Source: a virus. From it: a stretch of DNA of 30,012 nucleotides. The stretch is taken from positions 1-30,012 of IMG/VR virus record IMGVR_UViG_3300047300_000222; one strand, written 5' to 3'. A program made the translations under genes and the position numbers. The notes beneath the pieces are model-generated. The model was not told the DNA's origin, did not search any database, and saw only the letters and a program-made list of their open reading frames with translations. This document shows, piece by piece, positions 849-29,430 of this stretch. Numbering within the stretch: the stretch's first letter is position 1; each line of letters opens with the position of its first letter.

Positions 849-922
849 CATTCCAGCGGGTAAGCTCACGGGCTGGGCTTATTCGGTGCAATGTTGCATC
901 ATTCAATCAATAGGTGTCAATT

Positions 923-1552
923 ATGAAATTCTCTATTCAACGCAAGTCTATCCGTGCAATGCTTCACTTGGCTGCCAAAAAAGACCTACGTTATTACTTA
1001 CAAGGCGTTAACGTTGTTCGGGACAATCGGGGCACTTATCTCGAAGCCACTGATGGGCACGTTTTAGGCCGTTTATTGATTGACGGCATTAAATCAGATA
1101 CAAAACTCAATGTTGTTTTGCCTACTGAGGCACTTTTAAAGCTAAAGGGCACTAAAAAACAAGGCGAGGAATGGCTACATTTTGACGTCAACGGTTTGTC
1201 TGTGGAATGCATCGATTCACAATCTACCACCCGTTTTTCAGCACATGATGCACGTTTTCCAGATACTGACCGAGTGATTCCCCTTGTTTTTAAGGATGAA
1301 GACGTTAAACCCGCAACATTTAACCCTGATTTACTGGTGCGTTTTGTTGACGTCAGCGAAGATTTATACGGAAAACGTCAAATTCCCCATGTTTTGCAAC
1401 GTGGTACTCAATCGGCGATTGTAAGTTTTCCCAAGTTTGACGATTCTTTTATTGGGGTCATCATGCCAATGCGCGAAGATGGCACGGCGTCCGTCCCTCA
1501 ATGGTGCTATACACCCTCAGTTAAGCCCGTAGAAGTGCCCGAAAACGTCTAA
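923..1552 (+). CDS. two-domain DNA polymerase III beta-clamp-like protein
   Basis: 209 aa, starting at the ATG at 923 behind TAGGTGTCAATT; an upstream in-frame GTG at 914 lies inside that ribosome site and is rejected. Residues about 20-115 match the middle domain of bacterial DnaN: DLRYYLQGV, then EATDGHVLGRL, then VVLPTEALLKLKG and DARFPDTDRVIP. Residues about 125-195 match the last domain, ending FIGVIMPMR, like the C-terminal VVMPMRL of DnaN. The first DnaN domain (about 120 aa) is absent; bacterial clamps are about 366 aa. A 209-aa subunit is close in size to T4 gp45, which is a trimer of two-domain subunits. The likely role is a phage sliding clamp or a modulator of the host clamp. A roughly 20-residue tail follows the clamp ending. 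Confidence 0.75.
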   Translation: MKFSIQRKSIRAMLHLAAKKDLRYYLQGVNVVRDNRGTYLEATDGHVLGRLLIDGIKSDTKLNVVLPTEALLKLKGTKKQGEEWLHFDVNGLSVECIDSQSTTRFSAHDARFPDTDRVIPLVFKDEDVKPATFNPDLLVRFVDVSEDLYGKRQIPHVLQRGTQSAIVSFPKFDDSFIGVIMPMREDGTASVPQWCYTPSVKPVEVPENV

Positions 1553-4823: not shown

Positions 4824-5252
4824 TTACTCCAAGCACTCTTTCACACAAATATCAACGCCTGGTTCACTAGAAAACACCTTCGTAACATGAATGTTGATGA
4901 TCTGCGAATCATCATGGTAAACAACCCCATTCATGCCATCCTCCACTGATTTCAAAATATTTGACGCATCGGGCTTCTTAATTGGTTTCTCTGACCCATC
5001 GGCAATGGCTTGTAGGCGCTTTTTGGTTGCTGATGCGGGGATAGGTACTCTGATGTACAGATACAGGCTTACAGGGGTTTCTAAAGGCTCTGAGCCGCCC
5101 ATTGCTTGTCTAGCTGCATCCTTAATCAAGGTTTCATAGGTTCTTGTTTTCTCAGGGGTGTAGGCTTGGACAAAGTTTCCCCTTTTGACATACCTTGCTC
5201 GACCCTTGGGGACTGGTACGCCATCTACTTTGAATGTCACCATGAATGTCAT
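4824..5252 (-). CDS. rusA: RusA-type Holliday junction resolvase
   Basis: 142 aa, a usual length for RusA. The N-terminus has the family opening VDGVPVPKGRARYV followed by AYTPEKTRTYE. The metal-binding region is KKPDASNILK and, further on, GVVYHDDSQI. In E. coli RusA three aspartates and a lysine are essential; here the first (KPD), the lysine (ILK) and the DDSQ aspartates are present, but the position two after the first Asp is Ser instead of Asp. RusA cuts four-way junctions as a dimer and would resolve replication or packaging intermediates. Start at 5252 overlaps the upstream stop as ATGA. Confidence 0.9.
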   Translation of the reverse strand: MTFMVTFKVDGVPVPKGRARYVKRGNFVQAYTPEKTRTYETLIKDAARQAMGGSEPLETPVSLYLYIRVPIPASATKKRLQAIADGSEKPIKKPDASNILKSVEDGMNGVVYHDDSQIINIHVTKVFSSEPGVDICVKECLE

Positions 5253-5559: not shown

Positions 5560-5798
5560 ATGCCACCCTTAATGCCGTGTGCGGCTTCGTTGCTGATGTC
5601 GCAAGCCTTATCGTGACCTTCCAGCCAAGACACAACACTGAGATGTGCTGACCATGTGGCAGGTGCAAGCTGTTCACTATGGACGGTGACAAGACCTTTA
5701 CTAATTGCCAAATCCCAGAGTGCAGCTTTTGTTATCTGCTCATCCGTCAGCGGCAAACGATTACAGGTGCATTTAGCCGTGGTTTGTGTATTCGCCAT
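5556..5798 (-). CDS. hypothetical accessory protein, 80 aa
   Basis: The frame is open from 5843, but the first residues there lie in the tail of the HNH gene. I prefer MANTQTTAKC from 5798, which still overlaps the HNH gene by 26 bp; its ribosome site is weak. The protein has CTC near the N-terminus, a LPLTDEQITKAALWDLAIS module like the LTDEEI module of its neighbours, and an SVVSWLEGHDKACDISNEAA tail. The LTDEQI similarity ties it to the shuffled accessory set. Function unknown. Confidence 0.65.
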   Translation of the reverse strand: MANTQTTAKCTCNRLPLTDEQITKAALWDLAISKGLVTVHSEQLAPATWSAHLSVVSWLEGHDKACDISNEAAHGIKGGI

Positions 5799-6249
5799 GA
5801 TTTTGTTCTCTGAATTTTCTAATTGCTTCGACTGCATCTTCAATCCTTTCGTATCGACCTACTGTTATTTGTTTTTTATTCACACGACAAGAGGCTTCCC
5901 ATCGTTTGCTTTGCTTGTGCCACCAAACGCCTTTGTGCCCCGATTTGTTTGTTGACCGCTTTTTTTCATTCCAATGGTTTAGCGTGTTGTCAACTTCTCG
6001 CAAGTTTTCAATCAAGTTGTTTTGTTTATTTCCATCAACGTGGTCAATCATGGTTGGCATCCGCCCATTTAATAGCAACCAAATAACTCGATGTGCTAAG
6101 TAGCGTTTTTTGGCAAATTGAACAACAACATATCCTCGATTGCTGATTGATTCAACTCGCTTGCCAGCCTTAATAGTTCCAAACGATTTTTTCCAAACAA
6201 GAAACCCATCTTGATAATCAAACAAAGATTTAGCAATTTCGTAGTCCAT
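5773..6249 (-). CDS. HNH-AP2 homing endonuclease
   Basis: 158 aa starting at ATG 6249 behind AAAGGAGGTCAT, the strongest ribosome site in this region. Residues about 45-95 form an HNH_3 core: AHRVIWLLLNG, then IDHVDGNKQNNLIENLREV. Residues about 100-155 are an AP2-type DNA-binding domain: SGHKGVWWHKQSKRWEASCR, then VGRYERIEDAVEAIRKF. This architecture is that of free-standing homing endonucleases, which cut intronless or HNH-less relatives and spread by repair. It sits between two accessory genes, with its own ribosome site and a 26-bp overlap onto the next gene, consistent with insertion. Confidence 0.9.
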   Translation of the reverse strand: MDYEIAKSLFDYQDGFLVWKKSFGTIKAGKRVESISNRGYVVVQFAKKRYLAHRVIWLLLNGRMPTMIDHVDGNKQNNLIENLREVDNTLNHWNEKKRSTNKSGHKGVWWHKQSKRWEASCRVNKKQITVGRYERIEDAVEAIRKFREQNHGEYTNHG

Positions 6250-6741: not shown

Positions 6742-6839
6742 ACAAATCCATAAACTTTTAAAAGAACATAAATCGAAAGCGACCATACAGCCACCGACAA
6801 CGCCTTTAGCGCCAGCCTCAATGCTTCGTCTTTAGTCAT
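6738..6839 (-). CDS. 33-aa membrane peptide with MTKDEAL module
   Basis: Frame from ATG 6839 (ATGA overlap with the stop of 6836-7594) to TGA 6738-6740 (ATGA overlap with the next gene). It reads MTKDEALRLALKALSVAVWS and ends SIYVLLKVYGFV. The start is the same N-module as in the larger neighbours, but after about 14 residues it turns into a hydrophobic helix. It could be a truncated copy that survives as a membrane peptide, or a decayed leftover kept for coupling. Its perfect coupling at both ends argues that it is translated. Confidence 0.6.
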   Translation of the reverse strand: MTKDEALRLALKALSVAVWSLSIYVLLKVYGFV

Positions 6840-7594
6840 GCTTTCCTCACAACTTCTGCAAAGTATTTGCGAATATGGTCTGGCATTGGTGCAGCTTTCT
6901 TTTCATCAGCCTTAATCTTTTCCAATGCAGGGTCAGGCTCATTCTTTGATGGAACTGTGAGCCTCACAATGTCAGCAGGATTAACTTTCGGTGCATTAGT
7001 GTTTCTCACCCAATTACGCCAAGTAGCAAACCAATCCAACTTCACACCCTTTTGACCTGCTTGTGCAATCCAGTAGTCCTTAAACTTCTCAAAGGTTTGT
7101 ACTGGTTGTAAATCAGGTCTTTCCTGTTTACAAAAAACTAACCAATCACTTGGAAAAATAAAATCTTTAGAGAGGCGTGAGCCTCGCTTGTTTTCTCTAA
7201 TGTGTTTTGTGTCTTGTGTTATGGGTAATGTGTTATGTGTAGCATTGCTTTCGGATAGCGGAGGCAATGCGTTCGCATCTTTCTTACTCCATCTAGCTTT
7301 AGCACTAGCACTAGCCTTCTCTGATTTGTCACCAGCTTTGGCTATTTCCTTGTTTGCCCTATGATGAATCCACCCATCTTCTGTGCGTTCGAAATACTCT
7401 CGCAATACGATTGCAATGCTTTCGGTATGCGAACGCATACGAATCTGTCTTGAAACTTCTGCTTCATCAAGTGGAATTGGTGTTTCATGGAGATAGTACC
7501 AATCAAGCAATCGCCTGTAGACTAAATCCTCCATCTCGGAAAGATGGGAAGTGTGACTTTGATAGTCACCAATATTGAATTGGTAATAGTGCAT
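6836..7594 (-). CDS. DUF1376/replication-initiator-type protein
   Basis: 252 aa from ATG 7594; the family begins MHYYQFNIGDYQSHT, so four extra upstream residues are dropped. Residues 1-85 form a DUF1376 domain (YRRLLDWYYL, then IPLDEAEVSRQIRMRS), which is winged-helix-like. A basic, low-complexity linker follows (KASASAKARWSKK). Residues about 155-210 resemble the DnaT/phage replication C-domain: DFIFPSDWLVFCKQERPD, then FKDYWIAQAGQKGVKLDWFA, then WRNWVRN. Proteins of this shape act at phage origins and help load the helicase; that role is inferred. No helicase gene is visible here. It is the first gene after the promoter at 7695-7723. Confidence 0.8.
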   Translation of the reverse strand: MHYYQFNIGDYQSHTSHLSEMEDLVYRRLLDWYYLHETPIPLDEAEVSRQIRMRSHTESIAIVLREYFERTEDGWIHHRANKEIAKAGDKSEKASASAKARWSKKDANALPPLSESNATHNTLPITQDTKHIRENKRGSRLSKDFIFPSDWLVFCKQERPDLQPVQTFEKFKDYWIAQAGQKGVKLDWFATWRNWVRNTNAPKVNPADIVRLTVPSKNEPDPALEKIKADEKKAAPMPDHIRKYFAEVVRKA

Positions 7595-7694
7595 TTTCAG
7601 ACCCAAACATCGACCCTAAGAAGAAACTGCGGCAGGAGGGGTCTGTTCTCTTTTCGTATCGGGTAATTAGTCCGAACTAGCCGTGTTTCAAATC

Positions 7695-28455: not shown

Positions 28456-29430
28456 TTAGGCTGGAACTGCCAAAGCAAATGCGCCAGAAGCGTTAGCAGC
28501 AGAGCTGGTAGCGTTTGTACGCAAGGCTTTAACACCATAGATAGTGTCAGCAGTGAACAATGTACCGAGGTACTCTTGTTTGTACTGAGTCTGTGAACGG
28601 ATGCCCAACTGCTCAACCAAGACCATAGAGTCTTTGTGACCCATCAAGCAGATGCGGTCAGCGCCAGAAGAACCAGCACCGAAGTCAGCGTTGGATGTGG
28701 CGAACACAGCCATGCCGTACAGTTGACCAATTTCACCATTGCGGATTGCATTGCCGTTGCCAACAAATGCTTGCTCAGTGTAACGAGCCAAACCCATCAA
28801 AGTGTTGCGGCTTGAAGGAGGGATGATGAAGAAACGACCATCCATAGGAATGTCGTTGTCATCCAAACGCTGAATAGTGCGACGAATAGCAGCATCGGTC
28901 AAAGCAGCGGCATTGGAGGTAGAGCTGTTATAAGCAGTTGTACCATCAGAGCCGATGTAAGCCTTTGTTGTAGAAGCAGCAGTAGCGTAGTCATCAGTAC
29001 CAACTGTAGCGCCATTGAAAGCACGACCCAATTGAACCAAGTCTGTATCGATGCGCTTAGCCAAAGCATAACCAGCGTCTTCTGTGTAGAAAGAACGCAG
29101 TGATGTCAGGGCTTGAACTTCAACGATGTCTTCGATCAAACGGCTGTATTCATAGTGCTTGTTAATCAACACTTGAATGTTAGTGTCGCTCTCTGCGATC
29201 AGAGTAACGGCATCAGTAGCGGCTTTGGCAGAAGCAGAACCACGAGCTGGGCTAGGGATGTTAACAGTGTCACCCTTTTTGCCTTTGAAAGACATCTTCT
29301 TGACCAAGTTGGCCAATACGAGGTTCTTTTTATAGGCGGCAACAATTTCATCACTCCAAATCTCTGGAATGAAGTTAGCTGCGGAAGACGTTGTTACGCT
29401 ATTTGTTGGGGAAAAGGCGGTATTTGCCAT
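28456..29430 (-). CDS. major capsid protein (HK97-type)
   Basis: 324 aa, starting at ATG 29430 behind TAGGAGATTTAATC. The N-terminal arm is MANTAFSPTNSVTTSSAANF with IPEIWSDEIVAAYKKNLVLA, then FKGKKGDTVNIPSP, which is the E-loop region pattern of T7-like and related podovirus capsids. Later motifs are HYEYSRLIEDIVEVQAL, IPMDGRFFIIPPSSRNTLMG, GEIGQLYGMAVFATSNADFG and a KQEYLGTLFTADTIYGVKAL end. These match HK97-fold capsid proteins. Its position after the scaffold and before a strong terminator fits the most abundant virion protein. Confidence 0.92.
   Translation of the reverse strand: MANTAFSPTNSVTTSSAANFIPEIWSDEIVAAYKKNLVLANLVKKMSFKGKKGDTVNIPSPARGSASAKAATDAVTLIAESDTNIQVLINKHYEYSRLIEDIVEVQALTSLRSFYTEDAGYALAKRIDTDLVQLGRAFNGATVGTDDYATAASTTKAYIGSDGTTAYNSSTSNAAALTDAAIRRTIQRLDDNDIPMDGRFFIIPPSSRNTLMGLARYTEQAFVGNGNAIRNGEIGQLYGMAVFATSNADFGAGSSGADRICLMGHKDSMVLVEQLGIRSQTQYKQEYLGTLFTADTIYGVKALRTNATSSAANASGAFALAVPA

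Follow-up and report, generated by a model that had tools for sequence, protein, structure and literature searches.

A phage protein modelled as one and a half domains of the bacterial sliding clamp retains the residues of the peptide-binding pocket

Introduction

The sliding clamps T4 gp45 and PCNA are trimers whose chains each contain two complete domains and therefore four motifs. E. coli β*, a UV-inducible short form of the bacterial β clamp (DnaN), lacks domain 1, contains complete domains 2 and 3 and has been reported to be a working clamp. In full-length β, the dimer interface includes the residues Ile78, Phe106, Ile272 and Leu273 together with the more conserved charged residues Arg103, Glu298 and Glu304, and the residues of subsites I and II of the peptide-binding pocket have been catalogued in a review (PMC11139829). 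Monomeric β binds the clamp-loader δ subunit ∼50 times more strongly than dimeric β does (PMC11139829). The pore residue K198 is 87% conserved among bacterial clamps (PMC5042465). Herpesvirus UL42 and UL44 provide a precedent for clamp-like viral proteins that form no closed ring; positive charge mediates their DNA binding, and they act for a viral polymerase (PMC9690074). Phage Twort Gp168 is a clamp inhibitor (title of PDB 7evp).

The protein described here (mini-clamp) is encoded by a 30,012-base virus record, the whole of which was analysed and is referred to as the window. The mini-clamp shares with DnaN domain 2, the last motif of domain 3, the peptide pocket and the MPMR ending, but lacks domain 1, the first half of domain 3 and the dimer-interface residues, and its basic pore pair R197/K198 is replaced. 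Its general clamp fold is also that of T4 gp45 and PCNA, but it has three motifs instead of four. Like β*, it has no domain 1; unlike β*, it does not retain a complete domain 3. In contrast to UL42 and UL44, it is near neutral in charge, and most carriers of its family have no detectable polymerase. Host clamp function, the target of Gp168, is likewise the proposed target of the mini-clamp, but Gp168-type inhibitors bind the clamp itself, whereas the mini-clamp would imitate the clamp and engage the proteins that dock on it.

The closest described proteins belong to the family PHROG_3007, whose named members are Bcep781 gp15, the Serratia phage Eta protein, phiHSIC ORF2, the coliphage swi2 protein, the Pseudomonas phage TC7_030 protein and BcepC6B gp31. 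Domain 1 and the first half of domain 3 are absent from the members compared here, which have 177–241 residues and, in most cases, a preserved pocket. The window protein is only ∼21–36% identical to those from the named isolates. GenBank has contained members of the family for about two decades, so they are not new as sequences. No account of the 1.5-domain plan of the family, of the kept pocket and lost interface, or of a function was found in the searchable literature, which included few subscription papers.

Results

The mini-clamp gene and its conserved motifs

The mini-clamp open reading frame starts with an ATG at position 923 and is intact. The gene and its features are as follows.

923..1552, plus strand: mini-clamp gene, 209 residues and a stop codon; PHROG_3007 E 5.7e-30; dN/dS 0.03–0.09
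912..916, plus strand: Shine-Dalgarno-like AGGTG, read from the sequence, 6 bases 5' of the ATG
923..1282, plus strand: complete DnaN domain 2 (two β-α-β3 motifs), residues 1–120 (own profile, model, PF02767)
989..1006, plus strand: RYYLQG, E. coli R152–G157, pocket and loop II
1049..1066, plus strand: TDGHVL, E. coli T172–L177, pocket subsite I
1256..1276, plus strand: FPDTDRV, E. coli F241–V247, pocket subsite I
1283..1321, plus strand: linker, residues 121–133, in place of the missing first half of domain 3 (model, alignment, profiles)
1322..1474, plus strand: C-terminal half of domain 3 (last motif), residues 134–184, ending in VIMPMR (profile, model)
1457..1474, plus strand: VIMPMR, E. 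coli V360–R365, pocket subsites I and II
1475..1549, plus strand: extra C-terminal tail, residues 185–209, with a conserved P-x-W-C-Y (alignment, model)

The original prediction had given this frame and length and had listed four clamp motifs, all of which are present: RYYLQG at residues 23–28, ATDGHVLGRL at 42–51, DARFPDTDRVIP at 109–120 and IGVIMPMR at 177–184. R23, Y25, L26 and G28 of the RYYLQG motif are invariant in family alignment A2. The predicted extra tail behind the clamp ending was also found; these 25 residues have no counterpart in the enterobacterial/Eta subgroup. The mini-clamp is a real gene under purifying selection, as indicated by the dN/dS values of four pairs that include the window gene (0.03–0.09) and of three coliphage pairs (0.08–0.13), and a reading of the open reading frame as a decaying fragment was rejected on these values. 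Most family members have a net charge of approximately zero; in the window protein, basic residues surround the first two helices.

The mini-clamp is homologous to DnaN

The mini-clamp is homologous to DnaN far beyond chance. In a Pfam search, PF02767 (DnaN domain 2) matched at an E value of 7e-6 (26.8 bits, just below the 27-bit cut-off) and was the only DnaN domain found in the protein. The PHROG_3007 profile covers the mini-clamp end to end (profile positions 1–187 of 190), and PHROG_947, the family of full-length clamps, matches it over domain 2 (E 4e-7). A phmmer search against solved structures aligned residues 3–120 with residues 128–250 of Pseudomonas DnaN (E 6e-8) and, as a weak additional piece, residues 148–184 with the very end of DnaN. 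Profiles for domain 1, domain 2 and the domain-3 motifs were built from 79 DnaN sequences. The domain-2 profile matched the window protein at an E value of 1.9e-13. The last-motif profile (domain 3, DnaN residues 307–366) matched it at 3.2e-5 and the enterobacterial and Eta relatives at 1e-8 to 8e-11. The homology that had been read from the motifs is thus borne out by Pfam, by solved DnaN structures, by the domain-2 profile and by structural superposition (Z ∼17).

The predicted absence of domain 1 was confirmed. The best match of the domain-1 profile over 21 family members reached 2.4 bits (E 0.1), and PF00712 (DnaN domain 1) matched neither the mini-clamp nor any protein of 20 carrier records. 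Neither the window nor related records yielded a full-length DnaN or a separate domain-1 gene, either of which would have contradicted the prediction. PF02768, the complete DnaN domain 3, has no match in the window. A pattern scan of genome contigs for cellular homologues gave 86 pattern matches, none of which was confirmed.

One and a half clamp domains in the structural model

An AlphaFold2 model of the window protein was built on 40 aligned relatives, with a pLDDT of 90 and a pTM of 0.84. The modelled chain folds into two consecutive β-α-β3 motifs, a single α-β3 unit and a short tail. Domain 2 is composed of strands and helices from E2-6 to E102-106, and the last motif consists of one helix (H135-149) and three strands (E156-160, E164-168 and E176-180). 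The model superimposes on DnaN residues 126–366 over 176–177 residues at 2.7–2.8 Å with a Z score of ∼17. The last motif (residues about 130–184) corresponds to DnaN residues about 306–366, and DnaN residues about 254–305 are missing. The assignment of the mini-clamp as domain 2 plus the adjacent half of domain 3, that is, three β-α-β3 motifs in 1.5 domains, is well supported by the model and the profiles. Of the two domains assigned in the original prediction, domain 2 is therefore complete, but domain 3 is reduced to its last motif. The monomer modelling and structural search that had been proposed as a check recovered the clamp fold with only half of a second domain. A two-domain clamp was rejected on the missing half of domain 3, and the suggested analogy to a two-domain trimer such as PCNA or gp45 fails on the domain count.

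The same 1.5-domain plan was obtained for a distant family member, the 177-residue protein of an IMG/VR copy of coliphage swi2 (L158; pLDDT 88.7), which matches DnaN structures with a Z score of ∼14. In this model of the 177-residue subgroup, the helix of the second motif is also missing. The third helix of the L158 protein (L158:5001-5531; KAAKLFNPKFCGV) resembles the second half of DnaN domain 3 but also the first, which hints that the 177-residue coliphage mini-clamps contain a fused repeat. An origin of the third motif from the first half of domain 3 was considered and rejected, since the last-motif profile scores better than the first-half profile for both the L133 protein (E 8e-11 versus 0.12) and the L158 protein (1.7e-10 versus 2.5e-5). 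Some similarity to the first half of domain 3 is seen in the enterobacterial subgroup, as can occur among homologous repeats.

Loss of the dimer interface and pore charge and conservation of the pocket

All seven published dimer-interface residues of β map to segments that are deleted in the mini-clamps, according to the alignment and profiles, and all of the catalogued residues of pocket subsites I and II lie within the segments that are retained. Pocket conservation was assessed in 45 family members (19.3 effective sequences) as weighted identity to E. coli β. The mean identity is 0.75 at the 18 pocket positions versus 0.18 at the 172 other retained positions, and none of 100 000 random draws reached 0.75 (permutation P < 1e-5). 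In E. coli numbering, D150, R152, Y154, L155, G157, G174, P242 and R246 are invariant over 40 sequences, and the loop II residues D150, R152, Y153 and Y154 are likewise retained in the family. In the pore, R197 is absent, and more than half of the family by weight has Asp or Glu at the K198 position. Some of the pocket signal is a legacy of the clamp fold. However, the persistence of the pocket at ∼25% overall identity, together with the loss of K198, argues for selection on binding. Members of the BcepC6B group have an eroded MPMR end of the pocket, which reads GVIAGCR.

Distribution and annotation of the family

At an E-value limit of 0.1, 169 phage records matched a single query, 132 of them over 80% or more of its length. 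Close relatives were also found in 151 IMG/VR stretches. Targeted scans added coliphages as well as Pseudomonas aeruginosa phages and prophages. Members also occur in phages of Salmonella, Klebsiella, Vibrio and Burkholderia and in many metagenomic phages, and this widespread phage family appears to be a sliding clamp reduced to its protein-binding pocket.

GenBank records name the proteins DNA polymerase III beta subunit, beta clamp, RusA-like resolvase or hypothetical protein. The Eta copy is labelled 'putative beta-clamp protein', and Bcep781 gp15 is noted as 'DNA Pol III b subunit fragment'. PHROG_3007, whose profile is also matched by nine distant relatives, carries the label 'RusA-like resolvase', which is the sole source of a reading as a RusA-like Holliday junction resolvase. 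This reading has a negligible probability and was rejected. The mini-clamp has no match to PF05866 (RusA) at E values up to 10, and its modelled fold is that of a clamp. A genuine RusA resolvase is encoded separately in the window (4824-5252, minus strand; PF05866 E 1.7e-33), and Bcep781 likewise carries a separate Rus (gp22) besides gp15. The presence of a genuine RusA beside a PHROG_3007 protein in one genome points to an annotation error; the label, which has been copied into many records, is apparently wrong and should be corrected.

In Escherichia phage Bas80 (L155:20001-20537), codon 57 of the mini-clamp gene is an in-frame stop, and the annotation splits the gene into two hypothetical open reading frames; related phages such as swi2 have intact copies. 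The gene is therefore not essential everywhere.

Genomic context of the mini-clamp gene

The minus strand of the window carries genes for the head and tail. The window also encodes the RusA resolvase, a Sak single-strand annealing protein and a DUF1376 replication protein, and no polymerase was detected in it. Neither a portal nor a terminase was recognised, and the window is thus probably a fragment. Five close relatives of 32.2–35.5 kb have exact terminal repeats of 35–127 bases and therefore look complete. No polymerase, full clamp, clamp loader or DnaB was detected in close relatives of this complete-looking kind. The DUF1376 protein (6836-7606, minus strand) matches PHROG primosomal and replication-initiation families, is found in 70 of 130 related loci and is the likely replication initiator of the window phage.

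Pfam searches of 20–21 carrier records, which can miss divergent enzymes, found no DnaN domain 1, PolC, PolB, clamp loader or DnaB. PolA was found in only three of these records, from the BcepC6B and L139 lineages; Bcep781 is another carrier with PolA. Pseudomonas phage TC7 encodes a homologue of lambda P and so presumably recruits host DnaB and the host replicase.

In BcepC6B, the mini-clamp gene adjoins the DNA polymerase gene. A ParB-like HTH protein is encoded near the mini-clamp in three lineages (Eta, L062; Bas80, L155; TC7, L148), and their gene order makes a functional link possible. No conserved neighbour was found in the window's own group. Counts of clamp-binding motifs in phage-encoded proteins of the relatives are near chance, with the exception of QL[IL][LM]F, which seven relatives carry in their terminase. 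The latter motif lies within a DQLLxFPAxGVHDDLPDALSY stretch that was judged to be structural, and it was rejected as a clamp-binding motif.

Discussion

The mini-clamp is a variant of the sliding clamp, and its monomeric state, its peptide binding, its competition with the host clamp and the benefit to the phage are inferred here from sequence and model. The removal of both interface halves and of the pore charge with retention of the pocket argues that the docking site is used without the protein being a clamp. The best explanation, tentatively preferred and given slightly less than an even chance, is a ring-less and probably monomeric mimic of the β pocket that competes with host β for clamp-binding proteins. 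The mini-clamp would be the minimal unit that bears the peptide-binding pocket and would act as a monomer or small non-ring oligomer. Its predicted pocket would bind host replication and repair proteins through their clamp-binding motifs (QLxLF type), and competition with host β would withdraw or redirect chosen partners during phage replication by the host replicase. Candidate partners are the clamp-loader δ subunit, Pol II, Pol IV and Pol V, Hda and MutS/L, and the ∼50-fold stronger binding of δ by monomeric β makes δ one plausible target. Competition with host β would be the most economical function. The original prediction had offered capping of the host clamp or competition with it as an alternative to a ring; competition fits the conserved pocket better, and capping through the normal interface is unlikely because neither half of that interface is present.

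Several observations count against such a mimic. The pocket may be kept partly as heritage of the clamp fold, it is eroded in the BcepC6B group, and Bas80 carries the in-frame stop. Competition with the host clamp could be detrimental to a phage that depends on this clamp, and in carriers with their own PolA a role in replication is as likely. The main rival is an adaptor whose pocket tethers one specific host or phage protein, such as a polymerase, the primosome or the ParB-like neighbour, to phage DNA without acting as a decoy. The ParB-like gene near the mini-clamp in three lineages, the adjoining polymerase gene in BcepC6B and the retained loop II residues are consistent with an adaptor, but the window's own group has no conserved neighbour and no conserved phage clamp-binding motif was found in the relatives. 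This reading is considered unlikely. A factor that, like UL42 and UL44, raises processivity through direct binding of polymerase and DNA, with no ring around the DNA, is less probable still. The modelled clamp fold, the pocket, the PolA of the BcepC6B and Bcep781 carriers and the basic residues surrounding helices 1 and 2 in the window protein would suit it. Nevertheless, R197/K198 are lost, most carriers have no detectable polymerase, and the near-neutral charge of most members speaks against a DNA-sticking factor of the UL42 kind, given that such viral factors are rich in positive charge (PMC9690074).

A ring of unusual stoichiometry loaded by the host clamp loader, for example of four three-motif chains or a trimer, appears improbable. 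With three motifs each, four chains would total twelve motifs, as in known clamps, and β* has been reported to function as a clamp without domain 1. However, β* keeps a complete domain 3, which the mini-clamp does not, and a ring would need new interfaces with three motifs per chain, since all known interface residues are deleted. Moreover, the pore charge is lost, the 177-residue subgroup also lacks the second-motif helix, and no phage clamp loader was found in the carriers. The specific arrangement in which four chains encircle DNA and the odd half domains of neighbouring chains pair into a complete domain is very improbable; to our knowledge, a clamp of four three-motif chains is known nowhere else.

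If the competing pocket mimic is correct, phages would use clamp mimics as well as clamp inhibitors, and the mini-clamp would offer a natural means of probing the network of clamp interactions, as well as a possible lead for antibacterials. Family members occur in easily grown coliphages, and the function is therefore directly testable.

Other genes of the window

Two further minus-strand genes were identified. Positions 5773-6249 encode an HNH endonuclease that also contains an AP2 domain and is probably a homing endonuclease of the free-standing type. Positions 28456-29430 encode the major capsid protein, whose nearest relatives among isolates (24–34% identity) are mostly from podoviruses of filamentous cyanobacteria.
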